Shown here piece after piece: positions 14,739 through 39,590 of a stretch of DNA of 64,000 bases. The translations under genes and the position numbers were made by a program. The DNA comes from Candidatus Hydrogenedentota bacterium (GTDB taxonomy: Bacteria > UBA8481 > J006): positions 135,725 to 199,724 of the forward strand of contig RFFU01000074.1 in NCBI GenBank assembly GCA_003697085.1, in the 5' to 3' direction. A model generated the notes under the pieces. The model made no database searches, was not told the origin of the DNA, and saw nothing but the letters and a program-made list of their open reading frames with translations. The number at the start of each line of letters is the position of its first letter. Within the stretch, counting starts at the first letter, position 1.

Positions 14739-14901
14739 AAATTGCGGGATTGAATTCGATAGGCGATCGAATAGCTATGGTCGATATCTACAGTGGTCGG
14801 TAGGGATTCTGTGGGATAAGTAACCGCACGGAGTGGAAAGAATGTTTTTGGACCGGCCGAAATGCAGAGAAATGAGAAACGAAATAAGGGGAGGTTGATC
14901 T

Positions 14902-18501: not shown

Positions 18502-18581
18502 GAGTAAAAACGAAATACGGGTCGTTCTTCTGATCGGCCCAGCTGTCTAGGTATCAGCGCTGACGAGTAACGGGGAAGAGA

Positions 18582-21085: not shown

Positions 21086-22180
21086 TTAAACAGTGCGGAT
21101 TTTCAACATTGGAAGATAGAGAGAAATTACTACCCCTCCCAAGAGAGCGACGATAAAAACAATTGCGATTGGTTCAAGAACCGCAGTGAATATTCTCAGC
21201 GTTAAGTCCACCTCACTCTCGAAAAATTCAGCTGCTTGGACGAGCATTTCCGGAAGTTCTCCGGTTTCCTCTCCGGCGGCCGAAAGTTCCGACATCAACT
21301 TCGGGAACAACTCTTGATCCGATAACGCTTGGGAGAAAGAAATTCCTTGAGAGATTGCGGATTCGATACTTTGTGCCGTCCTCATGAAAACAACGTTTTC
21401 CAACACCTGGCTAACGACCGCCAGCGCATCGACGATATTTACGCCGCTCGCCATAAGAAGCGCCAAGGTCGAGGCGAAACGCGCCGTAAGAGTCTTCGTC
21501 AAAAGGGCCCCCCAGATAGGAGTTCTCAATAGAAATCGGTCGCGAAACTCTTGGAATTGCGGGATGTTCCGGGTTCGTGTGAGCAAATAGATCAATACCA
21601 CGGAAGAGATCAGGAGGAGAAGATTGTTCGGAAACGTGAAAAGGTTGTGTGTGAGGAAGTCGCTGATTCCGAGAACGACGCGCGTTGGAAGAGGAAGCGC
21701 TGTTCCGTGTTTCAAAATGGTGCTCTTCAAGCGGGGTACCAAATAGATCAGAAAGGCTCCCAATATCAGGAAACTTACGAGGAGAACAACAATGGGATAC
21801 GCCAACGCCGTAATAATTTTCGATTTTAGAGCAATGGATTTTTCCTGAAACGCATAAACCCGCGCCAACATTTCCGGGAGTTGTCCGGATGTTTCCCCCG
21901 CGCGAACCAAGTTGACGTAGACAGGGCGAAAAGTTCTCGGGTGTTTCGCGAGGGCTTGGGAGAGGGGGACGCCTGCAGTCACATCATGGTGAATGGATGA
22001 CAGGATCCCTCTGAAGAATTCGTTTTCCGTTTGATCGCGGGTGATCAATAACGCCCGATCCAAGGGAAGACGAGCCTTCAAAAGCGTGAGAAGAATTCGC
22101 GTAAAAATCAAAAGGTCTTTATCGGAAACGCGCTGGCGAAAAATAATTTTTTTGTTGGCGGAGTGTCTCCTGAAAACCAT
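21086..22180 (-). CDS. gspF: Type II secretion/type IV pilus inner-membrane platform protein GspF/PilC
   Basis: A 364-residue polytopic protein with the duplicated T2SSF domain. Copy one runs from 'LLIFTRILLTLLKARLPL' to 'GETSGQLPEML' (about 25-130). Copy two runs from 'RFASTLALLMASGVNIVDA' to 'GEETGELPEML' (about 228-330). Each is followed by transmembrane helices, three in all. It anchors the assembly ATPase and the pseudopilin extraction site. It starts 11 bp after gspE. The length is slightly short of the usual 400 residues, missing part of the N-terminal cytoplasmic extension. Confidence 0.94.
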   Translation of the reverse strand: MVFRRHSANKKIIFRQRVSDKDLLIFTRILLTLLKARLPLDRALLITRDQTENEFFRGILSSIHHDVTAGVPLSQALAKHPRTFRPVYVNLVRAGETSGQLPEMLARVYAFQEKSIALKSKIITALAYPIVVLLVSFLILGAFLIYLVPRLKSTILKHGTALPLPTRVVLGISDFLTHNLFTFPNNLLLLISSVVLIYLLTRTRNIPQFQEFRDRFLLRTPIWGALLTKTLTARFASTLALLMASGVNIVDALAVVSQVLENVVFMRTAQSIESAISQGISFSQALSDQELFPKLMSELSAAGEETGELPEMLVQAAEFFESEVDLTLRIFTAVLEPIAIVFIVALLGGVVISLYLPMLKIRTV

Positions 22181-22191
22181 TGGAGTTCTGG

Positions 22192-23928
22192 TTATTCCGA
22201 TTCCGTAAGAGATACGCGCAGGACTTCGTCCATCGTCGTTATCCCCTGAAGCGCTTTGTCAAAACCACATTCCACCATCGTGCGCATTCCAGAGGTTTTG
22301 GCGACCCGCCGGATTTCGTGGGGAGACCGTTTTTCCAAGACCATTTTTCGAATTTCGTCGTTCGGTTTCAGGAGTTCATAAATGGTCGTCCGGCCCCGGT
22401 ATCCGGTCCCCAGACATTCATCGCAGCCTGCACCGCGATAGAGAACAAAAGGGTCATCGGGGATATTGCGGAGCCCCAGCTGCTCCAGCCCATTTCGTTC
22501 AGCAGGATAGGAAGTTCTGCAACAGGGGCAGATTTTCCGTACAAGCCGCTGGGCTTCTGTTAGATGAACCGAGGAGGTTATCAAAAAGGGCTCAACCCCC
22601 ATATCGATCAACCGCGTCATAGCGCTCGTCGAGTCATTGGTATGGAGCGTGCTGAGAACCAGATGCCCGGTGAGGGCGGCGCGAATCGCGATTTCGGCCG
22701 TTTCCAAGTCGCGGATTTCGCCGATCATGACGATGTCGGGATCCTGGCGGAGGATGGAACGCAGAGCGGCGGCAAAAGTCATTCCTATTTCACTCTTGAC
22801 AGCGACGGCATTGACGCCTTTGAGCCGATATTCTACCGGATCTTCCACAGTTGTGATGTTTTTTTCGGGCGAATTGATCGAATTTAATCCGGCGTAAAGA
22901 GTGGTGGTTTTACCGCTTCCGGTCGGACCGGTTACAAGAACCATCCCGTACGGCCGTTTAAGGGCCTCCAAGAGGTGTTTCAGATCTTGATCTTCAAAAC
23001 CGAGAGTATGGAGGTCGAGAGGGATGCTTTCCATGTCTAAGAGACGCATTACGATTTTTTCCCCATAGACATCGGGGAGAATTGAAACGCGGATATCAAT
23101 ATTATTTCCATCCACTTTTATCAAAATTCGCCCGTCCTGAGGAAGGCGTTTTTCAGCGATATCCAGGCCGGCCATTATTTTGACGCGGCTCAGAATAGCG
23201 GGATACATAGCGAGCGGCGGGGCTTGAATTTCGTGGAGGATTCCGTCGATGCGGTAACGCAGCCGAAGTTCACGCTCGAAGGGTTCTAAATGAATATCAC
23301 TGGCCCCTTTTTTAGCGGCCTCGAGTAGGATGAGGTTGACGACACGAATTGTCGGGACTTCACTCGATTTTTGTTGAAGAACGGAGATGTCTTCCTCTTC
23401 TTCCTGCTCCACGATTTCGAAATCACTTTCCCCCACGATGGTCATCATCTCATTGATACTGTTTTTGCCGCGGAACGCTTTTCGGAGCTCGCGTTGGATT
23501 TCGGGGATCGACGCGACCAAGATATCAAGGTTTCGTTTCGAATGAAAACGAAGGACTGCGCGCGCTTCAGGGTTGTTTGGATTTGCCATCGCCACGGTTA
23601 ACGTTTTTTCTGTGACGTTAATGGGAAGCAAATGAAATCTGTAACACACCGATTCTGGAACAACCTTCAGAGCCTCCGGGTCAGTGGGATGTCGTTCGGG
23701 AATATATGGCGGAAGACCATGGAGGCGTGCCAAGAAGATCGTAAGAGTTTGGGCGGGGACCGCTTCCATTTCAGCGAGAACTTCATCCAGACGCTTGTCG
23801 GGATGGGATGACAGTTGCTCTTTTGCGAGAACCAGGGTTCTTTCATCAACAACATTTTCTTTCAAAAGAAGGGATTCCAATGTCTCTAAGACCTGGGTCA
23901 CAACACTGCCACTCCACTTTCTAAACAA
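22192..23928 (-). CDS. gspE: Type II secretion/type IV pilus assembly ATPase GspE/PilB
   Basis: A 578-residue cytoplasmic hexameric ATPase. It has an N-terminal MshEN-type domain (about 10-150), then an N2 domain with 'ASDIHLEP' and 'RYRIDG'. The Walker A is 'GPTGSGKTTT' near 334, the Asp box is near 'TVEDPVEY', the Walker B is 'DPDIVMIGEIRD', and a His box contains 'STLHTNDS'. A CxxC zinc site is split between 'CPCC' and 'CDEC', as in GspE/PilB. It powers pseudopilus or pilus assembly. It is first in a minus-strand operon with gspF and cepA, and is divergent from the pseudopilin operon, so one intergenic region probably controls both halves of the machine. Confidence 0.95.
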   Translation of the reverse strand: MFRKWSGSVVTQVLETLESLLLKENVVDERTLVLAKEQLSSHPDKRLDEVLAEMEAVPAQTLTIFLARLHGLPPYIPERHPTDPEALKVVPESVCYRFHLLPINVTEKTLTVAMANPNNPEARAVLRFHSKRNLDILVASIPEIQRELRKAFRGKNSINEMMTIVGESDFEIVEQEEEEDISVLQQKSSEVPTIRVVNLILLEAAKKGASDIHLEPFERELRLRYRIDGILHEIQAPPLAMYPAILSRVKIMAGLDIAEKRLPQDGRILIKVDGNNIDIRVSILPDVYGEKIVMRLLDMESIPLDLHTLGFEDQDLKHLLEALKRPYGMVLVTGPTGSGKTTTLYAGLNSINSPEKNITTVEDPVEYRLKGVNAVAVKSEIGMTFAAALRSILRQDPDIVMIGEIRDLETAEIAIRAALTGHLVLSTLHTNDSTSAMTRLIDMGVEPFLITSSVHLTEAQRLVRKICPCCRTSYPAERNGLEQLGLRNIPDDPFVLYRGAGCDECLGTGYRGRTTIYELLKPNDEIRKMVLEKRSPHEIRRVAKTSGMRTMVECGFDKALQGITTMDEVLRVSLTESE

Positions 23929-24020: not shown

Positions 24021-24048
24021 TTGCTTCTTTATGAAAAGGTTTTATAAT
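24021..24048 (+). promoter_or_regulatory. Candidate promoter for the gspG operon
   Basis: TTGCTT at 24021-24026 and a perfect TATAAT at 24043-24048 are separated by 16 bases. They lie about 110 bases upstream of the gspG start, in the only divergent gap between the two secretion operons. Confidence 0.6.
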
Positions 24049-24156
24049 CCTTTTTATAAGGTAGGAAAGGATTCCGGAAGGATTTTCGGTGGATGTTGGT
24101 TTTGGAGGAGAGTATCTCCGGCGGGGGAAGGGAGTGCAGAGAAGGAGAGGGTCGTC

Positions 24157-24687
24157 ATGATTCAAAGAGTGGGTTTCAGAAAACAAGGCGGATTTACGAT
24201 AATCGAACTCACAGCGGTTTTGTTGATCATTGGGATTTTGATGGCGGTGGCGGCGCTGAGTTTTCGAGGGAATGAGGAAGCCGCCAAAATCACCTCGGCT
24301 CGCGCTTCGCTGAGAAATATACAAAATGCTCTCGAGACGTATCGATTACAAAAGAAATATTATCCCACGGGAACGGATCGCGTGGGGTTGGCGAAACTTG
24401 TCAATGCCGGTCTGATTTCGGAGGAGAACCTCGAAGATCCCTGGGGGAACGACTATCATTATGAGCCGGTTCCTGAAGACAAGCCGACGGGTTATCGGCT
24501 GGAGAGCTACGGATCGGATGGGGTGGACGGACCGGAGGATCCGACGCTCCAGATGAGTAGTGCTTCGGCCGACGAGGAGGTGCAGAATCTGGATGAAGAA
24601 GCATTAGAGGGAGTCGATATTCCGGCTCCCATAGACAGCCGTCGGCATGATTGGGACGATTCCAATGACAACGTTGAGGTTCAATAA
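24157..24687 (+). CDS. gspG: Major pseudopilin GspG
   Basis: A 176-residue pseudopilin. The ATG at 24157 is chosen because it gives a normal prepilin leader (MIQRVGFRKQGG, cleavage before FTIIEL) and follows a GAAGGAGAGG site; longer frames upstream are not needed. The hydrophobic stalk 'FTIIELTAVLLIIGILMAVA' has the conserved Glu5. The globular part has the GspG hallmarks 'DPWGNDYHYE' and 'YRLESYGSDGVDG', where calcium is bound in the family. The C-terminus has an acidic extension. It forms the pseudopilus shaft that pushes substrates through the secretin. It is first in an operon that continues to about 36321. Confidence 0.92.
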   Translation: MIQRVGFRKQGGFTIIELTAVLLIIGILMAVAALSFRGNEEAAKITSARASLRNIQNALETYRLQKKYYPTGTDRVGLAKLVNAGLISEENLEDPWGNDYHYEPVPEDKPTGYRLESYGSDGVDGPEDPTLQMSSASADEEVQNLDEEALEGVDIPAPIDSRRHDWDDSNDNVEVQ

Positions 24688-24762: not shown

Positions 24763-25449
24763 GTGGTGTCTGAACGAAGCGGTAGAGTTGCGGGGGACGG
24801 GTGTGGGAATCGGGGGATCCCGGGGAGAATTTCCGGCTTTACGATCGTCGAGCTGACTCTCAGTCTGTTTCTGATGGCCCTTATTCTTTCGGCCGTGTTT
24901 GGTGTCTTTTTTTCAACTGCGAAATCCGGGAACGAAGTGGAGCGGCATGCAACGGCTTTGCGGTTGGCGTCGAGTGAAATGGAGCGGTTGGCCTCTTATT
25001 CAAATCCCTTGTATATCGGAATTTCCGGGGGAAAGGGAACGGGAGAAAAGCCGAAGGTTGTCGGCAGGGATATTTCATTTAAGGATCATTTTTCCATCGT
25101 GAGGAGAATTCACGCGGCGGAAACGAACCAAGATGTTCCGGGATTCATTCCGTCGGCGGACGATCTGATAACGGCGTTTATCGAGCCCAAGGACTATGTT
25201 CGTCGTCTTGCTGTTGTAGAAACGGAGGAGGAAAAAGCAGAAGCGGCTTCCGGTTCGACCGGAGAGTTGCGGCATGTTAGTAGAGACGCGGTTTTCGCTC
25301 GGACGGTAGAGAGAGAGATCCTTTCCTTTCATCCGCCTCTCGTCAAGGTATGGGTGACGGTCTATTGGAACGACAGGAGCGCGGGAATAGATCCTTTGGA
25401 GGATGGAGAGGCGGACTCCGTTCAGATCAGCACGTTATTGGCAGGTTAG
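24763..25449 (+). CDS. Minor pseudopilin (GspI/GspH-like)
   Basis: A 228-residue protein with a type IV pilin N-terminus: a basic 24-residue leader ending 'GRIS-G', then 'FTIVELTLSLFLMALILSAV' with Glu5. The rest is not recognisable by motif but contains 'ASSEMERLAS', similar to the helix after the stalk in GspI-like minor pseudopilins. It starts at tandem GTG codons (24763/24766), 75 bp after gspG, with no good RBS. It is expected to be part of the pseudopilus tip complex. The exact H/I/J class is inferred from order and is uncertain. Confidence 0.75.
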   Translation: MVSERSGRVAGDGCGNRGIPGRISGFTIVELTLSLFLMALILSAVFGVFFSTAKSGNEVERHATALRLASSEMERLASYSNPLYIGISGGKGTGEKPKVVGRDISFKDHFSIVRRIHAAETNQDVPGFIPSADDLITAFIEPKDYVRRLAVVETEEEKAEAASGSTGELRHVSRDAVFARTVEREILSFHPPLVKVWVTVYWNDRSAGIDPLEDGEADSVQISTLLAG

Positions 25450-25459
25450 GTTTTCGAAA

Positions 25460-26374
25460 ATGGAAATGATCGCTCGAAGGAAGAGGGAAGGGTTCACAAT
25501 CATTGAACTGGTGGCCGTTTTGTTAATTTTGGGAATCGTGACTTTGGCTATTTCCGAAGCGTATAATGGAATGATATTCACTTCGGAAGAACAAAGGTCG
25601 AAGATGTTTGCCAACCAGGATATCACGTTTTTCGCCCGGAAAATGACGAATGAGATGCTTGGGATATCGCGTCTTCTTCCGACAGGAAACGGCCAAATAT
25701 TCACAGGTGATTTTTTTCTGGACAAAATTATTTCCGTGCTTCCCACCGGCGATAAAGTGGTGGAAGGCCGCCTTGCGGCTTTTCGTTTGGTTGAGGTCAA
25801 GAGCCCATATTCATCAAGTCAGGCCGAGCGATTTCTTGAGTTACAAGTGAGAAGAAGTCGGTATCGTTGGACGGATCAGTTGGCGATCAACAAAGACAAT
25901 GACGGCCCGGACGGAGTATCGGCCGATGAATATCGAAAAGATGCGGAGGGGGCTTTTCTGGATGTCGATAACGCCGATGAAGATGAGGATCCTAAAACGG
26001 GTGTCGACGTCTTCGACGACGATGGCTTTCCCGACGATTTAGGAAAGATTGAAGTGGTCGATGGGGAAATTTCAAAGGCGGAACATCGGGAACTCGTGGA
26101 ACAAGGTGACTGGGAAACTTTTTTTAACGGTATTTCACCCCGGGAAAAAGAGGCCTATATTCTTCCTGTTTCGATGTCGTTTACGTTTTTTGATTCTCTG
26201 GGGATACCCCTTAATGAAAGAAACGAAGATTTATCGAGCCTTGGTATCTATGAGCTGAACCAAGCAAGGACGATGCGAGTGTCGATCGTGTATCGAAGGC
26301 GTGTAGGGGGGAGGATCCTGGATTCGGAAGAGGAGGCCAGCTTCGTCGTTGGTCTTGGAACATTGAATTCTTAG
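25460..26374 (+). CDS. Minor pseudopilin (GspJ-like)
   Basis: A 304-residue protein. The ATG at 25460 gives a short leader (MEMIARRKREG) before 'FTIIELVAVLLILGIVTLAI'; an upstream in-frame start would overlap the preceding gene. Size and order suggest a GspJ-type tip pseudopilin. A very acidic segment with Asp/Glu runs (about residues 150-205), rich in 'DNDGPDGVSADE' and 'DNADEDEDPKTG' types of sequence, could bind calcium. It is 10 bp downstream of the previous pseudopilin gene, so cotranscribed. The identity of the subclass is inferred. Confidence 0.78.
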   Translation: MEMIARRKREGFTIIELVAVLLILGIVTLAISEAYNGMIFTSEEQRSKMFANQDITFFARKMTNEMLGISRLLPTGNGQIFTGDFFLDKIISVLPTGDKVVEGRLAAFRLVEVKSPYSSSQAERFLELQVRRSRYRWTDQLAINKDNDGPDGVSADEYRKDAEGAFLDVDNADEDEDPKTGVDVFDDDGFPDDLGKIEVVDGEISKAEHRELVEQGDWETFFNGISPREKEAYILPVSMSFTFFDSLGIPLNERNEDLSSLGIYELNQARTMRVSIVYRRRVGGRILDSEEEASFVVGLGTLNS

Positions 26375-26442: not shown

Positions 26443-27876
26443 ATGGTGCGTGCCGCTGCAATTGAAATTGATTCGCGTGCCCTTCGGTATCTCAAAGGGT
26501 GGGTCGGGAAGAAAAAGGTTACCGTGAAAGAAAAAGGGGAGATGATTTCCGCTGATGAAAAAAGAGGCGCTGAGGGGGGGGACACGGCGGGAATCGCTTG
26601 GTACAACGAGGTTTTGGAAAAATGGAAAGCGACCGGAATGTTTCAAGATGTTGAAGAGTTGGTCGTCGTGGTGCCGGGGCCGAACGCCTTTTATTGTTCT
26701 GTGGTGTTGAGGCCGGAAGATTTGGTCTCGGCCTCCAAAGTTAGTGAACGTTGCGCGGCGGTATTGAAGGACGCCTTGGCATTCTCGAAAGTAGATACGC
26801 GTGTGGGTATTCCCGCCCGGCTTTTGGCGGCGGATGTTCGGGAAGGGCGCGATACCGTTGCAGCAGCCGTACCGCGGTCGGATTTTTCAGTATTCGATGG
26901 ATTATTGCCGAGTCTTTCGGGATTGGGCTGTGACCTGGTCCGGCTGGATATCCGGGGAACCACTCTGGGAGCGGTCGGCGCGGCGCATTTTTCAAACGGA
27001 ATGGTTGTCGACATCAGCGATCGGGCTGCGCGGGGTGTTCTCATTCAGGAGGGAGTAATCCGAAGGTATTTTTATGTGGAGTCTTTGATTGCCCACGGTA
27101 AAGAAGAGGGGTTTTGGGAGAAAGTCTTACACGAGATCACGCTGGCGTTGCCAAACGCCCAAAGAGCCGAAACGCTGCTCGAGAATGTTATGGTTTTAGG
27201 GGTGACGCCGGCTCAAGAGAACCGAATTGCGGAAACATTGAGATGTTTGACGGACCGTCCTCAAATCGATGGCCTGGGAGACGATGATTCAGAAAAGTAT
27301 TCTTCGTGTTACGGGGCGCTTCTCGGCCTGGCGAGAGCGGACGTGCCGGCGCTGAATTTTCTGCCGGAAGAGGCCATCGATTTGATTTACGGTGCTCGGC
27401 GTCGGGGAAGGTATCGCAAGAGGATGCAATGGGTATGTGGGATCGCGTTCGGTGTTTTTCTTATAAGCCAAGCGGCGATGATGGTACAGGAGGAAAAAAG
27501 GGAGGCGTTAAGAGAGGATCTTCGAAAAGATAGAAGTAAAGTTGAAGCAGTAATGAGAAGAAAAAGTGAACTGGAGGAAAAGTATAAGCTCCTGGAAGCG
27601 GCGGAAAATTTGAGGCTGTGGAATTTTTCTTGGGCGGAGTTTCTTTCAAATTTGAGGGATATATTGCCGCGAAAGACGTGGTTGGAGAGTGTTTCGTATG
27701 GAAGGGACGGGGTTTTGAAAATTCGAGGGAGTTCATATTTGAAAAACGCCTCAAAGAAATTAGAGAAATCTCTTAAGGGATTCGAACGACTTGAAAACGT
27801 TCAAATACGAAAAAACAAGCGGAGTTCGGACGGAAAAGTTTTCCGTTTCGAAATTTGGTGCGGAATTCGGAAATGA
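26443..27876 (+). CDS. PilM-PilN / GspL-like fusion inner-membrane assembly protein
   Basis: A 477-residue protein. Residues 1 to about 325 look like a degenerate actin-like PilM/GspL cytoplasmic domain ('AAIEIDSRALRYL', 'LVVVVPGPNAF', 'VVDISDRAARGVLI'). A single transmembrane helix ('WVCGIAFGVFLISQAAMMV', about 331-349) is followed by a coiled coil and a PilN-like ferredoxin-fold domain ('WAEFLSNLRDILPRKTWLESV', 'KIRGSSYLKNASKKLEKSL'). In type IV pili these are two proteins; in T2SS, GspL has this joined form. It probably recruits GspE to the inner membrane. Its stop overlaps the next start (ATGA). The phosphate-binding motifs of active actin-like ATPases are not evident. Confidence 0.78.
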   Translation: MVRAAAIEIDSRALRYLKGWVGKKKVTVKEKGEMISADEKRGAEGGDTAGIAWYNEVLEKWKATGMFQDVEELVVVVPGPNAFYCSVVLRPEDLVSASKVSERCAAVLKDALAFSKVDTRVGIPARLLAADVREGRDTVAAAVPRSDFSVFDGLLPSLSGLGCDLVRLDIRGTTLGAVGAAHFSNGMVVDISDRAARGVLIQEGVIRRYFYVESLIAHGKEEGFWEKVLHEITLALPNAQRAETLLENVMVLGVTPAQENRIAETLRCLTDRPQIDGLGDDDSEKYSSCYGALLGLARADVPALNFLPEEAIDLIYGARRRGRYRKRMQWVCGIAFGVFLISQAAMMVQEEKREALREDLRKDRSKVEAVMRRKSELEEKYKLLEAAENLRLWNFSWAEFLSNLRDILPRKTWLESVSYGRDGVLKIRGSSYLKNASKKLEKSLKGFERLENVQIRKNKRSSDGKVFRFEIWCGIRK

Positions 27877-29168
27877 AGGCGCCTCCGGTAACGGACAAAT
27901 GGATTCTCGCGCTGGGAGTGCTGACAGGGGTTGCCTTATTCCTGACGTTTCATAATGTTAAACGAATCAATGTTTTAATAAATACGAACAGTACTTTGAA
28001 AAATCGCGTCGAGAAAAACCGTGATGAAATATTGAATGGAAAAGAGATTGAAAAGGAAAGAAGAGAATTATTCAAACAGTTGGAAGTTTTGAAAACGCAT
28101 TTCTATGCTCCGGGAAACCCCGAAACGGTCAAGGAGGATTTGGAGCGGCTCGCAACAGAATTGAATGCGGCTTTTGGGGATGCCTGTCACTCGCGGGATA
28201 TTCAAATAGTTGTTGGGCAGGCCTATCCCAGTGGGACGAAGGGTCTTTGGGAGTATCCGGTTGCATTGGACATGGTCGGAAATTATAACGCCTTGGGAAA
28301 AACGTTGGAGATGTTGGAAAGAGGGGGGAAGGTGTTACGAGTGAGTGCCCTTGAGGTTCTTCCTCGGTCCGGCGGTTTTGATTTGAAGATTCACCTGGAG
28401 TTTTCGGTAGGGGCTGTGGATGGAGGGAAACGACGGAAGAATTCCGACAGGGAATTAAAAAAGACACTCCCTTCGGCAGAAGCAAAGTGGTTGTTTGAAG
28501 ACGAGCGGTTTCGCATTGTGATGAGCCCGATCCGTTCTCCTTTCGTCGACCTCGAAGAGATTGAGAATTCCCGTTTGGTTTTGCGGGTTCCACTAACAAC
28601 AAAGGAGGTCAAGGCTTCGGATGGATCCCCCGTCCGAGTGTCCCCGGAACCGGAGTTGTCGTTAGGGGTTCCACCGCCGATAGAAAAGGAGTATCGCTCG
28701 AAAAACGGACAACCGATTCGGGTTATATTTGAGGATGAAAGTCCATATTATGTAATGGTGAAAGCAGGGGAGAAAACTTTCATTGGGCCGGATGGTGCCA
28801 AGCGGTCGTTGCCCGAAGGACGGCCGGCGTCAATGATCGATAGAAAAACAGGTCGGCGGATTGTATTCACGTACGAATCAAAACCGAAATTACCGGCGAT
28901 TTTTAAAAACGTGGTATATACAGGAAATATTGTCGGTGGTAAGGCGATGGTTCTTCTTCCGCGGGGCGATGTATCTGCGGATTCAAAAGAGGGCGGTAGT
29001 CGGAGGAAGAGAGCGTTTTGGGGAAAAGGACAGATTGTCGGTCGGGAGGTGGGAACGCAGCATAGGGTCTATGTAAAGGAAATAAAGAAAGAATACATCG
29101 TTTTAACACTTTATTTGGACAAGAAAACGGAATATAATTTCACACTCCTACGGTCTCGAAAACGGTGA
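27873..29168 (+). CDS. PilO/GspM-like protein with PilP/GspC-like C-terminus
   Basis: A 431-residue protein starting at the ATG that overlaps the previous stop. One N-terminal transmembrane helix ('WILALGVLTGVALFLTF', about 10-26) leads to a coiled coil and a PilO-like ferredoxin-fold domain to about residue 185. This includes 'YNALGKTLEMLERGGKVLRV', very typical of PilO. A charged linker follows. The C-terminal third has 'KNVVYTGNIVGGKAMVLL' and a 'V.EI..EYIVLTL' ending, similar to the small beta domain of PilP/GspC that contacts the secretin. Such a fusion would join the alignment complex to the secretin in one chain. The PilP assignment is weaker than the PilO one. Confidence 0.7.
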   Translation: MKAPPVTDKWILALGVLTGVALFLTFHNVKRINVLINTNSTLKNRVEKNRDEILNGKEIEKERRELFKQLEVLKTHFYAPGNPETVKEDLERLATELNAAFGDACHSRDIQIVVGQAYPSGTKGLWEYPVALDMVGNYNALGKTLEMLERGGKVLRVSALEVLPRSGGFDLKIHLEFSVGAVDGGKRRKNSDRELKKTLPSAEAKWLFEDERFRIVMSPIRSPFVDLEEIENSRLVLRVPLTTKEVKASDGSPVRVSPEPELSLGVPPPIEKEYRSKNGQPIRVIFEDESPYYVMVKAGEKTFIGPDGAKRSLPEGRPASMIDRKTGRRIVFTYESKPKLPAIFKNVVYTGNIVGGKAMVLLPRGDVSADSKEGGSRRKRAFWGKGQIVGREVGTQHRVYVKEIKKEYIVLTLYLDKKTEYNFTLLRSRKR

Positions 29169-29196: not shown

Positions 29197-32100
29197 GTGA
29201 AGACGGGAAAAGGCGGACAATTTCATCAAAAACGGGGTGCCGTTGATATTATGAAATGTGGGATTCTCCTCTTAGCTTTCGGGATGACGGTGCTTGCGGC
29301 TTCGGCCAGGGTGAATATGGATTTTGAAGACGCATCAGTTGAGGAGATTGTTACGAATTTGTTTGGTGCCGAGGGGAAACGGTTTGTGGCAGAGGAGCCT
29401 CTTCCCCAGCAGAAAAGCACGATTCATGTGGAAAACTCGGATTTCGACGAAGCCTTATCCGCGGTTCTCGAGAAGATCGGCTTTTCTTTTCGTGTGGATG
29501 AGAGCGGGGTTTACCATTTATTTCGAGAAGAAGGGCGGAAAGAGAAAGCCGGTACGTCGGAAGAGGCGACTTCAGGGAGAATATCGTTGGAGTTTAGTGG
29601 TGATGTACGGGAAGCGGTTCAGTTGGCTTTTGAGCAGCTGACCAAAAAACCAGAATACGTCATTATGCCCGAGGTTGGGGGAAAAACGGAGGTGAACTTT
29701 CGCGACAAGGATTTGAAGACGGCGTTAAAGCTCATTTTGACACCGCGGGGATATGAGGCCGTGGAAAAGGACGGGGTAATCTGGATACAGAAGGGAAAGC
29801 GTTCGAGGGAAGGGAAAACCGGGAGCAAGAAACGTGATCTGGTTACGAAGATTATCGAGGTAAAGAAGCCCGCGGAGAAGTATAAAAACATTGTAAAAAA
29901 TTTGTTGACGCCGGGAAGAGGAAAGGTTGTCATCGACAAAGATTTCAACCTTGTAATAATAACGGATACGAAAGAAAAGATCGCGGAAATAGAAAACGTC
30001 ATTTCCCGGTATGACACAAGAGAAGAGGGGGAGAGGGAAAAGCGGCCGGGTCAGGGCGAAAAAAAAGGAAGGGCGGACGAGTTTGTTACGCAGATTTACA
30101 AGGCCCAATACAAGAGTGTCGGTTTTCTCGAAAAACGCGTTCGAAAATATCTTAGCCCAGATGGAAACATTTATGCGGACGAGGAAGAGGGGACGTTGGA
30201 AATCGAGGACAAGAAATCGCATGTGGACAAGATTCTCTACGCGTTGAAAACATATGATATTGAGAAAGTTCGGTATGTAACAATAAAGAAACAACTAAAT
30301 TTTTCGAAAGCAGAAGATTTGGTTGATGAGTTGCGGGATATTTTATCATCCGATGCGCAGGTGACATTTAATGAGAGGACGAATAGAATCTTTGTCCGTG
30401 AAACCGAAGAAAACGCCGATCAAGTCGTCGAGTTTCTCAACGATGCGGATCAACCTCCGTTGCAGGTGTCTATTGAGGCGACCATCTTGGATTTGCAGTT
30501 GTCAGGGGACAATGAATTCGGGATTGATTGGCAGGCGGTTTTTAATTCGATGAATCCCATGGGGTCGAATTTTGCCGTGGGAACAAATCTTATTACGGAT
30601 ATTACGGTTGATAATCCCCAATTTGTTGAATACCAGAGAGATATGAACGGCAACCTGATTCTGGGGGCGAACAACGATGCAGTACCCGTATCTCACACTC
30701 CCGGGTCCGTTGTTGGAAATCGACAAGGGGCGTTCGTGTCTCAGGTCCAGCTTCACAATGTCGATTTGTTCGGGCATAAGGACCTGATAAAGGTGTTGAC
30801 GGCGCGGTTATTGGCTTCGAAGGTCATTTCGAAGGCGGATATTCTGGCATCTCCGAAGATCAACGTGATCAACAACGAACAGGCTTTGATCGAAGTAGGC
30901 TCGAAGATTCCTTTCGTGACATCAACGACAACGGGAGGTGCGGCGACGGAGAATATTACGTTTGAGGATGCTGTTCTGAGCCTGGAGGTAACTCCAACGA
31001 TCAACCCGGATCACATTGTGAATATGCGAATTGATTTGACCAATGATCGTCCCGGTCCGAGCGTGAGATCGGATGTTAACGTGCCAGTTATCTTAAAACA
31101 GCATCTGACAACCAATTTAGATGTTAAATCGGGCAATACGGTGATATTGGGAGGATTGGATCGGAAAACCATTGATGAGGATAAGACGGGGGTTCCGATT
31201 TTGATGGATATTCCCCTTCTCGGACGGCTTTTTTCGAGAAAGACGAAAACCCAGGTAAAAAGAGAGTTAGTTCTTTTTATTACGCCGACGATATTACCGT
31301 CTCCTTACGAAAATGACAACACGAAAGAAGCCCTTCGAAAAAAGCGGGAACATGAATTTGTTGACGAAAAGCCTGTTCAGTTTGTGGAGGCGTTCGTAGA
31401 ACCGGAGGAATTAACGATATCGCGGGATCCTGATTTTGCCGGCGATACGCTTCGTGTGACATTTCGTGTCGATAAAGAATTGCGGGCTGATCCGATGGTT
31501 CTTGTGGCGGGGAGAAAAGCGAGAAAAATGGAAGCAGACGGGAAATCCTTTTCCTACGCATTTTCCCCCGGGGTGAATTTCCCGCAAGGAAGGAATGAAG
31601 TTATGATCAGGGTCGAGGACAAGGCGGGAAATGAAAATTCGATACAAATTCCTTTTTCCGCGTATTTAGAGAGGTTTCCACCAGAGTTTACAAACATAAA
31701 ACAAAGCCCTCGTCCCGGGGTGATGGGAGAAGAAATGGAAATCTCTTTTCGAGTCAACAAAACATTGAAAGAAGAGCCGAAAGTCCGTGTGGGGGGGAAG
31801 GATCTTGTTTTGGAAAAAGCGGGGCCGCGGTCGTATCGCTATAAGTTTCAGGTTCCGATGGCTCCGCGGGAGGGCAGATACCGTTTGGAAATTGAAGGAA
31901 TAGATCTCGACGGGAATGTAGGGAGGACGACCACGGGGGTCGATATCGTCTTTGAAAAGACCCCACCCAATCTTCAGTTTAAATCGGTGGTTCCGGCCAC
32001 GGTTGCCCTGGGAGAAACACTTGAGGTGAATGTTGTTTCGAATGAGGCTTTGCGGAGACCTCCGGTACTCCTTATCAATGGTCACACAGCGAACCTGACG

Positions 32101-33825
32101 TATTGGGACACGAGAATACATTCCTTTACGTTTCAATATCGTCCTTCGGAAGTTTCAGAAATAGGTCGGGTGCCGATTAAGGTTCGAGGGATCGATAAGG
32201 TTGGAAACCTCGGCGAGGCGAGCGATACCATTCGAATAATCGGCGATCATATCCCGCCGGTGGCAAGGGAGATTCATCTTAAACCGAAGTGTCTCGTTTA
32301 CTACCCCGGCGGCAAAGCATCGCGGCTGCTTCTCGGCGTTGATTTTACTGAAGATTTGGCCGAAGAGCCACACGTATATTTCGGAAAGAAACGAGGCGAA
32401 ATACGCAGACATGAGGGGCGGCATTATGAGTATGAGTACGCCTTCAAAACGAAAAAGACGGATGAAGAAGAATTAAATATCAGAATCGAAGCGGTGGACG
32501 AATGGGGGAACCATTCGGAAACGACGATTCGCGTCCCTTTGAGGGCGGAGACCGAAGCGCCTGAGATTACAGAGATCACAGTGGAACCAAGGGAGGTGGT
32601 GATTTATCCCGGGAACAGAAAGAAAAGAGCAGAGGCGATAATACGGTTTAAGGTGTCGGAGAAGTTGAAAGGGGATCCTCTTGTCACGGTGGGAGGTCAT
32701 TTGGCGCGCAAGATCAAGGAGGAAGGAGGAATATATCTGTACAAATTTGTTCTCGGAAGACATTCTTCAGAGACGGGAGTGCGGCCGGTGAGAATTGTAG
32801 TCACGGACTTGGCAGGCAATAGTACAGAGGTCTCGGATGAAATAGAGTTTGTATTGGAGAACGAGCCGCCCGCTTTTCGGGATTTGCGGGTTCTTCCGAA
32901 AGCGGAGGTGATGCTGTATCCTGGGGATCCAAAAAAGAAAACGAGAATCATTCTATTAAAGTTTGAGGCCAGCGAAGAGTTGAGGGGGGATCCGGAAGTA
33001 ACGGTTGGAGGTAAACCGGCACAATTTGTAACGCGTTCCGGACTTAGATATACCTATCGGGTGGGGATTGAATCAGCGGATACGCGAGATTTTCTGGACG
33101 TAATTGCGGCGGGACGGGATTTGGCCGGGAATTTCGGCCGAGAGCGTATAGGAAAGATAAGGTTGGTTCGGGAAACAAAGCCGCCGATTGTCAGGAAAAT
33201 TAAAGTTGAACCGAAAAGTGTTGTGGTGTACCCCGGGCAACCGGAAAAAAACAAGGAGATTGAGATTCTTTTCGAAGTGGATGAACCATTAGGAAAAAAT
33301 CCCGAGGTTTACGTAGGGGGAAATCCGGCGCGTTTTGACCCGAAAACCTCGGCGGCACCATTCCTTTTTGGGTTTTCTTACCGGCCCGGCCGGGAGGAAC
33401 GCGAAGGTGCCATACCGGTAGTTATTAAAATTCAGGATCTAGCAGGGAACAAAACTTCGTTGGTTCGAAAGGTCATTTATCGTTTTGAAAAAGACCCCCC
33501 GGTGATATCGGATGTTCACCTAGTAGGGAAACCTCTGTTGGGAAGTTGGATCAAGATCATATTTCGTGTGAATGAAACGCTTGTCGAACCGCCTTCTGTA
33601 ATCGTTTCAGGACGGCGTGCCTCTTTTGAGAATTATGATTCAAAGAAACGGGAGTATGTTTATCGGTATCATATTCCTCGGAAAACGGGATCGCCTCAAC
33701 TTTATGTTGAGATTGTCGCCCGTGATCTCGTTGGAAATGAGGCGACATTTTCGGGAAACCTTCCGGCTCATCCGGGGGCGTTATCCTACGGGGAAACAGT
33801 AAAAGGAAAATGGCGGGGGCGATAG
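29197..33825 (+). CDS. gspD: Secretin (GspD/PilQ family) with eight C-terminal Ig-like domains
   Basis: A 1,542-residue outer-membrane secretin, more than twice the usual size. GTG 29197 is used; ATG 29251 (MKCGILLLAFG) gives a tidier signal peptide and may be the true start. After the signal come two STN/N0-like domains (about 38-110 and 130-205), N1-type domains (about 210-360), and an N3-like part. The secretin domain follows to about 700, with 'ADILASPKINVINNEQALI', 'VILGGL' and 'VPILMDIPLLGRLF'. Residues from about 740 form eight Ig-like units of about 100 residues. Each unit has a 'PP' boundary, an 'F.V.E.L...P.V.V.G..A' centre and a 'D.AGN' ending. Family secretins end soon after the secretin core, so this tail is exceptional. 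Location of the tail is unknown. Confidence 0.92.
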   Translation: MKTGKGGQFHQKRGAVDIMKCGILLLAFGMTVLAASARVNMDFEDASVEEIVTNLFGAEGKRFVAEEPLPQQKSTIHVENSDFDEALSAVLEKIGFSFRVDESGVYHLFREEGRKEKAGTSEEATSGRISLEFSGDVREAVQLAFEQLTKKPEYVIMPEVGGKTEVNFRDKDLKTALKLILTPRGYEAVEKDGVIWIQKGKRSREGKTGSKKRDLVTKIIEVKKPAEKYKNIVKNLLTPGRGKVVIDKDFNLVIITDTKEKIAEIENVISRYDTREEGEREKRPGQGEKKGRADEFVTQIYKAQYKSVGFLEKRVRKYLSPDGNIYADEEEGTLEIEDKKSHVDKILYALKTYDIEKVRYVTIKKQLNFSKAEDLVDELRDILSSDAQVTFNERTNRIFVRETEENADQVVEFLNDADQPPLQVSIEATILDLQLSGDNEFGIDWQAVFNSMNPMGSNFAVGTNLITDITVDNPQFVEYQRDMNGNLILGANNDAVPVSHTPGSVVGNRQGAFVSQVQLHNVDLFGHKDLIKVLTARLLASKVISKADILASPKINVINNEQALIEVGSKIPFVTSTTTGGAATENITFEDAVLSLEVTPTINPDHIVNMRIDLTNDRPGPSVRSDVNVPVILKQHLTTNLDVKSGNTVILGGLDRKTIDEDKTGVPILMDIPLLGRLFSRKTKTQVKRELVLFITPTILPSPYENDNTKEALRKKREHEFVDEKPVQFVEAFVEPEELTISRDPDFAGDTLRVTFRVDKELRADPMVLVAGRKARKMEADGKSFSYAFSPGVNFPQGRNEVMIRVEDKAGNENSIQIPFSAYLERFPPEFTNIKQSPRPGVMGEEMEISFRVNKTLKEEPKVRVGGKDLVLEKAGPRSYRYKFQVPMAPREGRYRLEIEGIDLDGNVGRTTTGVDIVFEKTPPNLQFKSVVPATVALGETLEVNVVSNEALRRPPVLLINGHTANLTYWDTRIHSFTFQYRPSEVSEIGRVPIKVRGIDKVGNLGEASDTIRIIGDHIPPVAREIHLKPKCLVYYPGGKASRLLLGVDFTEDLAEEPHVYFGKKRGEIRRHEGRHYEYEYAFKTKKTDEEELNIRIEAVDEWGNHSETTIRVPLRAETEAPEITEITVEPREVVIYPGNRKKRAEAIIRFKVSEKLKGDPLVTVGGHLARKIKEEGGIYLYKFVLGRHSSETGVRPVRIVVTDLAGNSTEVSDEIEFVLENEPPAFRDLRVLPKAEVMLYPGDPKKKTRIILLKFEASEELRGDPEVTVGGKPAQFVTRSGLRYTYRVGIESADTRDFLDVIAAGRDLAGNFGRERIGKIRLVRETKPPIVRKIKVEPKSVVVYPGQPEKNKEIEILFEVDEPLGKNPEVYVGGNPARFDPKTSAAPFLFGFSYRPGREEREGAIPVVIKIQDLAGNKTSLVRKVIYRFEKDPPVISDVHLVGKPLLGSWIKIIFRVNETLVEPPSVIVSGRRASFENYDSKKREYVYRYHIPRKTGSPQLYVEIVARDLVGNEATFSGNLPAHPGALSYGETVKGKWRGR

Positions 33826-33844: not shown

Positions 33845-35002
33845 ATGGCGCTATTTGTTTTGGGAAACTTGAGAACAGGTGCTCTCATCAGTGTTCTTCT
33901 TTTTTTTCTGTCGATTCGTGCGGATGCGTTGGCCGGAACCACAGTGGAGAAATTGGAACGATGGGAGGCGAGGATAAAAGAAGTTTCGCGAAGGGATCGG
34001 TATCCGGAGGAATTCAAGAAGGAATTGGTCTTTCAAAAGGGAGTTCTTGAGATTCTTTTGAGGGGCCTCGAGACAGATGCGAAAGTACGTAGAAAGTGGA
34101 GAGAGGAGGTAATAATCCACCGAAAAAGAATAAAGAAGAACGCGGATTATCTGAAGATAAGGAAATTGCGGAAAGAGAGGCGGGCACTTCGAGAGGAGTT
34201 TTGGGATTCCGCGACAAGGATTTACCAAGTGATGGGAGGAAAAGCAAAGAAAAAGTGGGGGGAGATGGTTGAGGAGTTGGACTATTTGTGGGAAACGGCC
34301 GAATTAGAACTCCAAAGGGAGAGGAGTCTGTTAGCGCAGAATGAAAAAAAGGAGAAGAATTTGGAAAAAGAGATTCGAAAGCGAAAAGAAACTTTTCTCA
34401 AGTTGGAAGCCGCGATGAGAGAAATTTCTTTTAATCAGGAAGAAGAGATCGTTTTCGAATTTGGCGAAAGGTGTTTTTCGGACGGCGTTCGGGCGGGTGC
34501 TTTGGAGGAGCAGATTGCCTTGTTAAAGGGCGATTTCGGAAGGGTGAATCGGGAAAAGCAGATTGGAGTGGCTCTAAGGCATCTAAAGCTGCTGCGGGAA
34601 AAGGAGGAGATCGACTGGAGCGTCGATCTTCTCGTGGACGACCTTTATTACAGAAATATGAAAAAGCTCGTGGAGCGAAATCGGGTACTCCCGAAGGATA
34701 TTCGGCGATCACGATTGAAACAATTAACGTCCGAAGAAAAAATCAACAGGTTAAGAGGCGAATTGAGACATCTGCAAGTGCTTCTAGCGATTTTGGGAGA
34801 AGAGCGGCAGTATTGTGAAAAACTCGACGGGTTTCCTTGTGAAATACGGAAGATTGAAGGAGAAAGAGAAAGAACGGCGTATGAAATTGAAACGAAGATG
34901 ATGGAGATCGAACGAATGGAAGCGCAACAAAAAGGGGATAGGAAGACATTACGGAGACTTGAAAAGAAGATGCAGGAGCATAAGCGGTTGAGGATTCGAT
35001 GA
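33845..35002 (+). CDS. Unrecognised exported coiled-coil protein in the secretion operon
   Basis: A 385-residue protein not matched to a known family. It starts with a probable signal peptide (GALISVLLFFLSIRADALAG). The rest is very rich in Lys, Arg and Glu with long heptad-like stretches (about 40-190 and 260-385), indicating an extended coiled coil. A short Cys-containing loop ('YCEKLDGFPCEI') lies near 325-335. It starts 19 bp after the secretin gene and its stop overlaps the next start (ATGA), so it is cotranscribed with the secretion genes. A periplasmic spacer or scaffold for the secretin is a plausible role (inference). Confidence 0.6.
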   Translation: MALFVLGNLRTGALISVLLFFLSIRADALAGTTVEKLERWEARIKEVSRRDRYPEEFKKELVFQKGVLEILLRGLETDAKVRRKWREEVIIHRKRIKKNADYLKIRKLRKERRALREEFWDSATRIYQVMGGKAKKKWGEMVEELDYLWETAELELQRERSLLAQNEKKEKNLEKEIRKRKETFLKLEAAMREISFNQEEEIVFEFGERCFSDGVRAGALEEQIALLKGDFGRVNREKQIGVALRHLKLLREKEEIDWSVDLLVDDLYYRNMKKLVERNRVLPKDIRRSRLKQLTSEEKINRLRGELRHLQVLLAILGEERQYCEKLDGFPCEIRKIEGERERTAYEIETKMMEIERMEAQQKGDRKTLRRLEKKMQEHKRLRIR

Positions 35003-36321
35003 TTCGTTCGAAACGCATTTTTTATCCGATCGCGGGTGTCGTCATTTCCACAGTGGTCGTATTAGGAATGCAATTTATCTGCAACAAAGCGCCAGGAGAG
35101 TTAAGGTATCTTAATAAAAGAGGTGAAAGAGCGAAGTATCGCATGATGATCCACGTTGTATGCAGGACGTCAGAAGGCGACTCTATTCTTCAAAGTGTCG
35201 ATTGGACCCTACGAGGAGAATTAAAGGAATACGTAAAGAGCATCGGGAAAAAGTCGGGTGTGGCTCAAGTGGAGTACTCTTTTTCTGGGGGAAAACTTTC
35301 GTTTCTTAATTCGGAGGGAGAGGGTGGGGTTTTTCGGTTGCCTGCTACTAAAATAGTCTGCAAAAGAAATTCATTTTCTACGCTGCGAAAAATGGTTTCT
35401 CGAAGGGGAAAAGGCGTTAAGGAGGAAAAAGATCTTGCATCCTTATTTGAAAGGACGTTTGTCCCGGATTTTCTGGAGCCTCCCTTATCTCAAGAAAAGA
35501 AGAGGAAATGGAGGTGGTTTCGGAGTTTGCGGGAGGGGGAAAGATGGAAAAAAAGCGTCCCGGTAATAATTCCTTTTTTGGAGGAAGAGGTATCGTTGCC
35601 GGGACGATATCATGTAGAAAATATCGAGATCAGAAAGAAGACCGTGGATATAAAAGGGGAGTATGAGAAAAGGATTGCAACGAGGGAAGGCCTCGGTTTT
35701 ACTTCAAGCGATGGCATCGTCTTTTATCTGCGGGGCGGCATTTCCGGAGTCTCCCGATCAAAATTTGATTACCGGTTGGGACGGGTTCTCGCATCTTCGG
35801 CAAAAATCAATGCCCAGTTTCGTTATGCGGATTTTCCACTGGATAAGGAAAAGAGTGATGCAGGAGGTAAGAGAAGAACAAGCATTAGTAAACCGGTCGA
35901 GAGGGGGAGAGATATCCTAAAGATCGCAATGCAAATCCTTCAGACGGTTTTTCTTCCGGTTCCGGCCCGTGCACAGGAAGGTCGCTGGATTTTCGTGGAT
36001 GGGAGAAAGCCGACAGAAGAAAAAAAGGAGACCCTTTCCGAGAACGGAACGAAAGGAAGTGAAGCTCCGACAGGACGATCAGCGAAAGAAGACGAATTCT
36101 TGGCGCAGTACGATGTGTTTTTTGAAGATGAGACGGACAAGGTTCTGGAAGACACGGGGGTGTTCCAGGAGGAAGGATCGAATGACACGTCGAAAGCCGA
36201 ACAATACGGAGGAAGTGGCTTTCGTCCAGAGGTGGAGATTTATTTTGATGAAGATGAAGTATCTCCTTTGCTTCGCGCGATGATAGAGATTCAATATGAG
36301 TTTAGAAGAGTCGGCAAATGA
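34999..36321 (+). CDS. Unrecognised membrane-anchored protein, last of the secretion operon
   Basis: A 440-residue protein of unknown family. The N-terminus has one hydrophobic segment ('IFYPIAGVVISTVVVLGMQF') and probably stays as an inner-membrane anchor with a periplasmic body. Residues about 35-290 are beta-rich and charged. Around 305-330 there is a second short signal-like stretch ending 'PVPARAQ-EG', followed by an acidic, low-complexity C-terminus. The ATG overlaps the stop of the preceding coiled-coil gene. No catalytic motif is visible. The operon position suggests a role in the secretion machine, but no function should be assigned. Confidence 0.6.
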   Translation: MIRSKRIFYPIAGVVISTVVVLGMQFICNKAPGELRYLNKRGERAKYRMMIHVVCRTSEGDSILQSVDWTLRGELKEYVKSIGKKSGVAQVEYSFSGGKLSFLNSEGEGGVFRLPATKIVCKRNSFSTLRKMVSRRGKGVKEEKDLASLFERTFVPDFLEPPLSQEKKRKWRWFRSLREGERWKKSVPVIIPFLEEEVSLPGRYHVENIEIRKKTVDIKGEYEKRIATREGLGFTSSDGIVFYLRGGISGVSRSKFDYRLGRVLASSAKINAQFRYADFPLDKEKSDAGGKRRTSISKPVERGRDILKIAMQILQTVFLPVPARAQEGRWIFVDGRKPTEEKKETLSENGTKGSEAPTGRSAKEDEFLAQYDVFFEDETDKVLEDTGVFQEEGSNDTSKAEQYGGSGFRPEVEIYFDEDEVSPLLRAMIEIQYEFRRVGK

Positions 36322-37208: not shown

Positions 37209-39590
37209 TCAATCGGCAACGATACGAAGGGTTTTTATCTCGTTGGGTTGGAAGGTAAGAGAAGAGGAGGTAACGATAGAGAGCGGTTCCTCTAGGAGGT
37301 TGGACAGGTAAACGTGTCGAAAAGAGGGACAAAGTCGGAAGCGAGGCCGCACTGTTCTTTTGGAGGTATTGTACAAACGTACAATAATGGCCTTTTTATC
37401 TTCTGAAATTTTCAAGGTTGATAATTGAATCGCAGGGTTGGACAGAGAGAAAGGTGCTTGGGGAAGCGGCCCAAAGGGGATCAGTCGGACGGAGTTCATA
37501 AAGAGATCTGCCCGAAGAAAGCATTCTTCGAAAGTTTCGAACGGAGACCAACCATATTCAACGGATATTTTTCCGATGCACTGAGATTCTCCGGTTCGTA
37601 TGAAGGGACCGGCCTCGTTTCTTCGATTTGGAATATTGCCGCGGGAAAGCCATCCGGTGGAGCGGAGCAAGGTTATTCCAAGACTTGGCTGGGAAAGGTG
37701 TGCATCGTATTCAGGGAGTCCGAGGCCGAAGAGGACGATATGGCGATCGGTAACGAAACGTTGCATGGGCGCTGTTGAAGAGGGCGCCTCATGGCGTAAG
37801 GAAACCGGCCGCCGTAACTCGTGGAGGGAGGGGGGGGTTCTTTCTACAACACCAAAATGGTCTTCAGCGAAAATCCTCGATATCCTTTTTGTCGAAAAAC
37901 GGACTTGGAAACGATGGTCGCAAGCCTCGTTTATCCACTGTGTTCGGAAGCGAAGCAGAGGATCTCCCGCCCGGATTTCCATTGTAGTGGAAAATCGGGT
38001 GGGGATTGTGTAGGGGGAACGTGTCTTTTCATCGGGGTGAAGAGCGGTTGGAACCGAAAGAAAATGGAAGAATTTAATTCGCGCGATTTCAGGCGTGAGA
38101 ATTTCAAGGGACCAATCCAGGAATTTCGGAGAGAGTGGCCGATCCTTCTCCAAGGGACAGAAGTTGTATTCGTCGCCCTTGTCGGCCTCATCTTGAAAAA
38201 AGAAAAGGTTTCGAAACGAATTATTTGTTTTCAAGTCTCGGACGGTCACGCGGCCTTTTTTTGATATTGTAATGACCAAACGTCCGTTTTTTATCACGTT
38301 GTTTTCTGCGCGGACGGCGATTCCTTTAGGTGGCCGGGTAGAGTGAGAAAGCGGCACGGTCGTCAAAGGAGGTATGGAAGGGAAGAAGTGAAAGGCGTCG
38401 TCGGTTGGATCGTGAACGACACCACGGAAGGGGTGCAAAGTTGCATTAAAAACAAAAGCGTTCTTTTGGCCTTTGGGTACGGAAGAAAAGATTTTGCGAA
38501 AGGAAGCGGTAATTCCGCGGCGGAGGGCACGATAGCGTTTCAGCATATCTCGGTGAACGGCATCAATGGAACAGCCGCAGATCGAGTCGTGAGGATGGTT
38601 TTCCAAGAGGAGGTTCCAGAGCATCTTCGAACTTGAAAGGGTGGAGGACGGTTGGTTTGCTGATGAAAGGGCCAACAACGGATCAAGGATTCGCGCCAAT
38701 GTCCATTGGTGTTCAGCGTTTTCTTTTTTGAGATAGAGTCTAGAGGAATAGACGCCCGGAAGGAGAAAAATCCGGCCTGTATCGCGAAACTCGCCCGTCA
38801 ATTTTGGGAGGTCGTCTGGAAGGCGGTCAAGGAAGTCGATCGGAGTGCTTGGAACAAATTTGATATTTTTTAAGTGCGAACAAAGAAACCGGAGTTTGGA
38901 TTTTAGACGATTTGGAAGAGGATGATGATCAGCCCCTATAGGTAAAAGTAGTTTCGGAACACCAGAGCGTTTTTTCACCGAGGAGAGCCATGTTTGGAAG
39001 GCGCGAAGGCGTTTTTGCGGGGTGATCGGCCCCTCCAGAGGATGAGAATCGTGAAAAAAGACATGATAATAGCCCTCTGTTAAGTGATAGGTTTTCACAG
39101 TGGAACCGTCCGGCCCTTCCCACCAAAATGCCGATAGGGGAGGGTCAATACCTCTCCAAACGATGGACGAATTGATGCCAACTCCTTTGAGGAGGGTGGG
39201 GATCCAGCGTGAGTGGCCGAAGGAATCCGGAAGGTAGCCGACGAAATCTTTAACGTGGAATTGTCTAGCGGTTTCGATTCCATAGAGGAGGTTGCGAACG
39301 AGGGATTCGCCCGAGACGAGAAATTCATCGGCCAATACAGTCCAGGGGCCGAAAAAAAGGCGCTGCGAGCGGCAAAAATCGATGATGTCCTTTTTTCTTT
39401 CGGGGCGACGATCTAAGTAATCCCGGAGGACAATGGTTTGCCCATCGAAGTAAAACGAATGGATCGTATCCTCGGCGAGAGCGTCGAGGACTCCGTCGAA
39501 GGTTTTGATGAGTTCCGATTGGAATTCGCGAAACGTCTTGTGCCATTCGCGATCCCAATGGGTGTGAAGATAAAAATAAACTTTTAACAC
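37209..39590 (-). CDS. GH38 family alpha-mannosidase
   Basis: A 793-residue zinc-dependent retaining mannosidase, with no signal peptide and so probably cytoplasmic. The N-terminal 'HTHWDREW' contains the zinc ligands (His11, Asp13). 'GYLPDSFGHSRW' contains the nucleophile Asp122, which is also a zinc ligand. 'NHPHDSICGCS' near 340 supplies the last metal-binding His. C-terminal beta-sandwich domains follow. Bacterial members process alpha-mannosides from N-glycans or yeast mannan, or 2-O-mannosylglycerate. The GTG start is preceded by a weak CAGG site. It is transcribed alone, divergent from the phosphatase gene. Confidence 0.92.
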   Translation of the reverse strand: MLKVYFYLHTHWDREWHKTFREFQSELIKTFDGVLDALAEDTIHSFYFDGQTIVLRDYLDRRPERKKDIIDFCRSQRLFFGPWTVLADEFLVSGESLVRNLLYGIETARQFHVKDFVGYLPDSFGHSRWIPTLLKGVGINSSIVWRGIDPPLSAFWWEGPDGSTVKTYHLTEGYYHVFFHDSHPLEGPITPQKRLRAFQTWLSSVKKRSGVPKLLLPIGADHHPLPNRLKSKLRFLCSHLKNIKFVPSTPIDFLDRLPDDLPKLTGEFRDTGRIFLLPGVYSSRLYLKKENAEHQWTLARILDPLLALSSANQPSSTLSSSKMLWNLLLENHPHDSICGCSIDAVHRDMLKRYRALRRGITASFRKIFSSVPKGQKNAFVFNATLHPFRGVVHDPTDDAFHFFPSIPPLTTVPLSHSTRPPKGIAVRAENNVIKNGRLVITISKKGRVTVRDLKTNNSFRNLFFFQDEADKGDEYNFCPLEKDRPLSPKFLDWSLEILTPEIARIKFFHFLSVPTALHPDEKTRSPYTIPTRFSTTMEIRAGDPLLRFRTQWINEACDHRFQVRFSTKRISRIFAEDHFGVVERTPPSLHELRRPVSLRHEAPSSTAPMQRFVTDRHIVLFGLGLPEYDAHLSQPSLGITLLRSTGWLSRGNIPNRRNEAGPFIRTGESQCIGKISVEYGWSPFETFEECFLRADLFMNSVRLIPFGPLPQAPFSLSNPAIQLSTLKISEDKKAIIVRLYNTSKRTVRPRFRLCPSFRHVYLSNLLEEPLSIVTSSSLTFQPNEIKTLRIVAD

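Follow-up and report, generated by a model that had tools for sequence, protein, structure and literature searches.

A predicted secretin with eight tandem Ig-like domains beyond its pore

Secretins are common to pili, type II and type III secretion, and filamentous phage. In secretin structures only the rim lies in the membrane, while the remainder, including the C-terminal S-domain that meets pilotins, is in the periplasm (PMC6532946). The S-domain where pilotins bind is described as a periplasmic part of the ring, and secretin tails have been tied to assembly (PMC6532946, PMC10499894). Among the closest described systems, PilQ (PDB 6w6m, 3jc8) stops at the pore and carries its extra modules (AMIN) N-terminally, and GspD ends with a short S-domain. 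Peptidoglycan binding is provided by N-terminal AMIN and SPOR domains in some secretins (e.g. the AMIN triplet of Myxococcus PilQ and the SPOR domain of Legionella LspD) or by partners such as GspB/OutB and TsaP; GspB/OutB, which binds the N0 domain, is an inner-membrane protein in its own right (PMC9239104). The periplasm is about 30 nm wide (PMC9239104).

We analysed a window of 64,000 nucleotides, i.e. the whole stretch of DNA presented here, from the genome of a Candidatus Hydrogenedentota bacterium. An open reading frame on its forward strand (29197-33825; 1542 codons in translation, with 0 internal stops) encodes a secretin that has N domains and a pore in common with PilQ, but whose additional array is C-terminal. 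Its pore is homologous to that of GspD and it likewise lies in an operon with a GspG-like pseudopilin, with an Ig array in place of the short S-domain. Whereas the envelope-binding modules of LspD and Myxococcus PilQ are N-terminal, the extra modules here are C-terminal and Ig-like. The likeness to GspB/OutB is in the proposed role of fastening the ring to both peptidoglycan and inner membrane, except that here the tail is part of the secretin. The true start is likely ATG 29251 rather than the listed GTG at the beginning of the frame; it is followed by a predicted signal peptide of the typical kind, called from sequence and hydropathy rather than by a dedicated predictor. Besides this signal peptide, hydropathy gave no further membrane-like segment. 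The features of the core and linker are as follows.

29251-29307, +, predicted signal peptide (residues 19-37 of the listed frame; MKCGILLLAFGMTVLAASA, hydrophobic stretch)
29311-29796, +, two N0/STN-type domains (residues ~39-110 and ~128-200; Pfam STN in two stretches, first boundary by eye)
29839-30465, +, secretin N domains (residues ~215-423; Pfam Secretin_N, E 8.5e-22, in two stretches, first-part boundaries by eye)
30796-31305, +, secretin pore domain (residues 534-703; Pfam Secretin; PDB PilQ 6w6m, E 3e-34)
31306-31395, +, linker past the pore (residues 704-733, about 30; low-confidence helix at ~707-717 in AlphaFold2)

Membership of the secretin superfamily (PilQ/GspD) is indicated by a pore well over the curated Pfam cut-off (Secretin, residues 545-700, E 1.8e-43, 148.5 bits against 27.5), by STN and Secretin_N domains preceding it, and by the predicted signal peptide. 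The best match among solved structures was Vibrio cholerae PilQ (6w6m, E 3e-34), which aligns as far as residue 569 of its 571, such that the tail begins where PilQ ends; an earlier note on this DNA had placed the end of the core near residue 700, which agrees with a pore at ~534-703. The nearest of all families is NCBIfam PilQ (TIGR02515), yet at 256 bits the protein falls under the subfamily cut-off of 284.35 and is not classed as PilQ; for GspD (TIGR02517) it scored 231.4 bits, under the equivalog cut-off of 351.35. Pfam yielded no AMIN match at E ≤ 1 and no SPOR match in the secretin. A pilotin-dependent GspD has a folded S-domain with an Ala-Phe helix past its pore; at that place the present protein has a short linker with a low-confidence helix (EALRKKREHEF region) and no Ala-Phe there.

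The remainder of the protein consists of eight tandem repeats of 92-105 residues each (residues 734-1528), which end nearly at the stop codon. Counted from the end of the Pfam pore match, 33 residues precede the first of them.

31396-31671, +, Ig-like domain 1 (repeat alignment, profile, AlphaFold2)
31672-31956, +, Ig-like domain 2 (repeat alignment, profile, AlphaFold2)
31957-32247, +, Ig-like domain 3 (repeat alignment, profile)
32248-32550, +, Ig-like domain 4 (repeat alignment, profile)
32551-32859, +, Ig-like domain 5 (repeat alignment, profile, AlphaFold2)
32860-33174, +, Ig-like domain 6 (repeat alignment, profile, AlphaFold2)
33175-33489, +, Ig-like domain 7 (repeat alignment, profile)
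33490-33780, +, Ig-like domain 8 (repeat alignment, profile; 14 residues and the stop remain to 33825)

All eight repeats carry a D-x-x-G-N motif and most open with a P-P linker, while pairwise identity ranges from 16 to 39%, being highest among repeats 5, 6, and 7. Searched against the whole 3.2 Mb assembly, the repeat profile matched these eight (E 1e-26 to 1e-35) and no further Ig repeats at E ≤ 0.001. Pfam Big_13 scored 35.5 bits on the whole tail (cut-off 27), single stretches being weak. AlphaFold2 models of repeats 5-6 and of the linker with repeats 1-2, each given the remaining tail repeats as its input alignment, had a mean pLDDT of 87 and showed beta-sandwiches with some seven strands in each domain, supporting an Ig fold of the Big_13/Big_3 type for the modelled domains. 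Foldseek and VIA-align 2 matched the tail model to many Ig-fold proteins, including bacterial adhesin repeats, with VIA Z up to 9.6 over two domains at large rmsd and a single-domain match to RbmA (Z 8.6, 2.4 A, 88 residues); these are generic Ig folds that carry no functional information, and we did not use them to infer function. The earlier proposal of eight Ig-like domains, ~800 residues following the pore without a break, is thus borne out by eight profile matches within a single frame, and the structure prediction it had suggested for the tail alone, run on parts, returned confident Ig sandwiches.

Such an arrangement might also arise if mis-assembly or a sequencing frameshift had fused a secretin gene with an adjoining Ig-repeat gene, and the source is one species and one MAG, in a MAG-like assembly of 145 contigs. 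The frame is, however, unbroken across the junction of pore and tail, without a stop, a shift, or an internal start with a signal peptide. Between 30900 and 31800 only the secretin's own frame has clearly positive coding scores, apart from a single near-zero value (0.05) in a different frame; head and tail correlate at 0.83 in codon usage, a value as high as that for the head and its operon neighbours, and base composition is even. No signal peptide follows the in-frame starts close to the tail (among them GTG 31384 and GTG 31456), so the tail would not be exportable alone. With the same operon running on at both sides, we regard an artefact as highly improbable.

The secretin belongs to an operon of eight genes, all in one direction and either closely spaced or overlapping, adjoined by two divergent genes.

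24031-24687, +, GspG-like major pseudopilin, operon gene 1 (Pfam T2SSG, E 2e-13; NCBIfam GspG 72.9 bits, below cut-off)
24763-25449, +, minor pseudopilin candidate (weak N_methyl; TM segment)
25403-26374, +, minor pseudopilin with prepilin motif (Pfam N_methyl, E 5.5e-6)
26443-27876, +, PilM/PilN-like (GspL-type) protein (Pfam PilN at the C-terminal end; putative PilM-like part)
27855-29168, +, PilO/GspM-like protein (by position and one TM helix; no family match)
33845-35002, +, coiled-coil-like protein with N-terminal hydrophobic signal (19 nt downstream of the secretin)
34999-36321, +, 440-aa protein with one N-terminal TM helix (4-nt overlap with the coiled-coil gene)
22192-23928, -, PilB/GspE ATPase, divergent (Pfam T2SSE, E 2e-140; PilB 640 and GspE 620 bits, both just under cut-off)
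21086-22180, -, PilC/GspF inner-membrane platform protein, divergent (Pfam T2SSF, E 3e-57)

Judged by these scores, the machine is predicted to be a type IV filament system intermediate between type IV pili and type II secretion; the secretin and ATPase fall under the equivalog cut-offs of PilQ, GspD, PilB, and GspE, and we therefore do not assign it to either. Pfam found no GspC in the operon. The 3.2 Mb genome encodes four secretins and has eleven ATPase matches in the T2SSE family, and several type IV filament systems appear side by side in it (Tad, T2SS, probable pili, and the secretin-Ig machine). The operon is flanked by a GH38 alpha-mannosidase (37209-39590, Pfam) and by a large cellulase-like protein and a GH94-like one (13096-21053, by eye), and these carbohydrate-active enzymes are possible secretion substrates.

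Neither of the two genes downstream of the secretin has a Pfam family match, and no homologue of the coiled-coil protein was found in 59 other genomes. Their place directly after the secretin in the same operon, and the lack of coiled-coil homologues, which a component evolving alongside the tail would show, are consistent with a tail on which secretion substrates or accessory proteins (e.g. the coiled-coil protein) dock, rather than a mechanical brace; we consider this possible, though rather unlikely.

To place the layout among other secretins, a survey spanned 290 genomes, with frame lengths covering about 150 secretin matches. For about 50 distinct secretins, sampled at roughly one genome for each distant lineage with long-frame ones added, the sequence beyond the pore was read; their tails were absent, short, disordered, or helix-hairpin-helix (HhH), none of them Ig. 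Conversely, the Ig profile matched six others of 386 diverse genomes, with up to 12 candidates scored per genome, and all six matches lay in frames lacking a secretin. In the phylum of one of these six, 25 of 68 genomes matched the profile, and none of twenty Ig regions inspected there had a secretin in the same frame. By eye, none of the ~160 secretin matches listed shared a contig with an Ig match, in 30 Ig-carrying genomes. When the full protein and a three-repeat alignment were each scanned against 84,980 species, pattern matches arose, none of which was confirmed; as such scans use short peptide patterns, they rule out close relatives only. Relatives for comparison comprised one genome of the assembly's order (G001, 86% complete), which had no copy, all others sharing only the taxonomic domain, and the phylum of G015 is represented by one genome only. 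No orthologue of the secretin was found, and so there is no conservation pattern to indicate a binding face. We found no open-access text joining secretins with Ig-like tails, and a Cytophaga T2SS paper names Ig only in a different protein. As far as searched, the Ig-tailed layout is confined to one species in this sample, where absence is no proof; it is unusual and, in the open-access literature searched, undescribed, while its component parts are ordinary. The layout had been called unusual from the sequence alone, a view that holds in the secretins read and listed here, and the many known secretins with the same tail that would have spoken against it did not appear in the sample. The accompanying statement that known secretins end with the pore and a short pilotin-binding tail was too strong, given the HhH and long disordered tails, though it stands to the extent that none is Ig.

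Occurrence in one species only among the genomes searched, with no copy in G001, could also reflect a neutral gain, in which the secretin of this lineage acquired an Ig-repeat segment of little function. The repeats have nonetheless drifted apart (16-39% identity) without losing their frame, fold motifs, or codon usage, so selection has probably long maintained them, and we think a neutral origin very unlikely.

The Ig repeat family is itself ordinary, occurring elsewhere in large secreted or surface-type proteins. It is found with PKD domains (L112), with a PhoPQ-related domain (L108), and in L107 (4758-9932) as eight repeats between a kelch domain and other Ig domains. Tandem arrays of this family were also seen in large secreted-type proteins of the phylum of G277 (L107, L112, L109), where a ~2,570-aa version occurs in several genera of one family. 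These proteins share the repeat family with our secretin, with up to eight repeats in tandem, but they lack a secretin domain and are presumably extracellular.

That the nearest repeats by profile reside in such proteins, and that adhesin repeats are among the structural neighbours, would fit a tail displayed outside, whereby the Ig string passes through the pore or alongside it to act as an adhesin or spike on the surface and the secretin serves as its anchor. Yet the C-terminal regions of known secretins are periplasmic (PMC6532946), no known route takes the C-terminus out, and by Pfam the array has no lectin or other binding-domain cap; display outside is thus an unlikely role. Of the roles floated in the earlier note (a cage, reach to peptidoglycan, binding of the coiled-coil protein, display outside), secretin topology would favour the periplasmic ones.

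Domains fused past the pore are not restricted to this protein. In the same genome, a giant secretin frame of 2779 aa (L005, contig C88, 7880-16219, -) runs from many Secretin_N-type modules through the pore to four C-terminal ComEA-like HhH domains, and is possibly a DNA-uptake secretin with a built-in DNA-binding tail. An upstream frame (16024-16797, -) with a signal peptide and a TPR-like part overlaps it in an AMIN-type-looking domain, and the gene seems to be split by a frameshift in the assembly. HhH tails also occur in G001 (L038, Pfam), G019 (L041), and G030 (L042), the last two by eye. These secretins resemble the Ig-tailed one in the position of the fusion, with the difference that their tails are ComEA-like HhH domains rather than Ig. 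ComEA binds DNA in the periplasm (PMC3879209), and HhH domains past the pore of the giant secretin would thus fit a periplasmic side for such tails.

We hypothesize, at a confidence somewhat short of even, that the Ig-tailed protein serves a type IV filament machine as its outer-membrane secretin and that a periplasmic collar of tails braces its ring. Specifically, the ring would form in the ordinary way, the chain leaving the pore at the periplasmic face, at the position of the S-domain in known secretins, and the eight Ig-like beads of each subunit continuing beyond the pore. Some 13-15 such strings might then surround the ring as a collar or skirt built of rods. Each Ig domain measures about 4 nm, such that a stretched string of eight would span ~30 nm, approximately the width of the periplasm, and from this we infer a collar that could brace the ring against peptidoglycan and/or inner-membrane partners, e.g. 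the products of the next two genes, both predicted to be exported or membrane-anchored. A pore homologous to those of PilQ and GspD, a tail that starts from the PilQ end, a predicted signal peptide as the sole membrane-like segment, the Ig-like beads themselves, the periplasmic S-domain of published structures, the HhH tail of the giant secretin, and the lack by Pfam of AMIN and SPOR, the modules other secretins use, argue for such a brace, as do two following genes that by layout belong to the same operon and whose products have an N-terminal signal or TM helix. The occurrence of the tail's Ig family in secreted and surface-type proteins argues against it, pointing outward rather than to the periplasm.

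Two other roles can be envisaged. The strings might form an external cage spanning the periplasm from the ring to inner-membrane partners, making the secretin itself the envelope-spanning tether, a task of GspC, GspB, and PilP elsewhere; we hold this to be quite doubtful. Alternatively, the tail could act as a pilotin or assembly-chaperone region that keeps monomers soluble and guides assembly, and that may be clipped off later. It does sit in the S-domain position, and secretin tails are tied to assembly (PMC6532946, PMC10499894), but 800 residues are far beyond such a need and there is no known processing site, making this role improbable.

Tethering or bracing of the pore inside the cell envelope is the most likely job of the tail, which would act from the periplasmic side; elsewhere this task falls to AMIN, SPOR, GspB, or pilotins. 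The known add-on modules that hold secretins to the cell wall are situated before the pore or in partner proteins, and a ring with some 100-120 Ig-like domains behind its pore would represent a different way to hold a large channel in the envelope. Such a ring would be a natural test object for load on the outer, periplasmic face. More generally, the Ig-tailed and HhH-tailed secretins together suggest that the region past the pore is a general fusion site.
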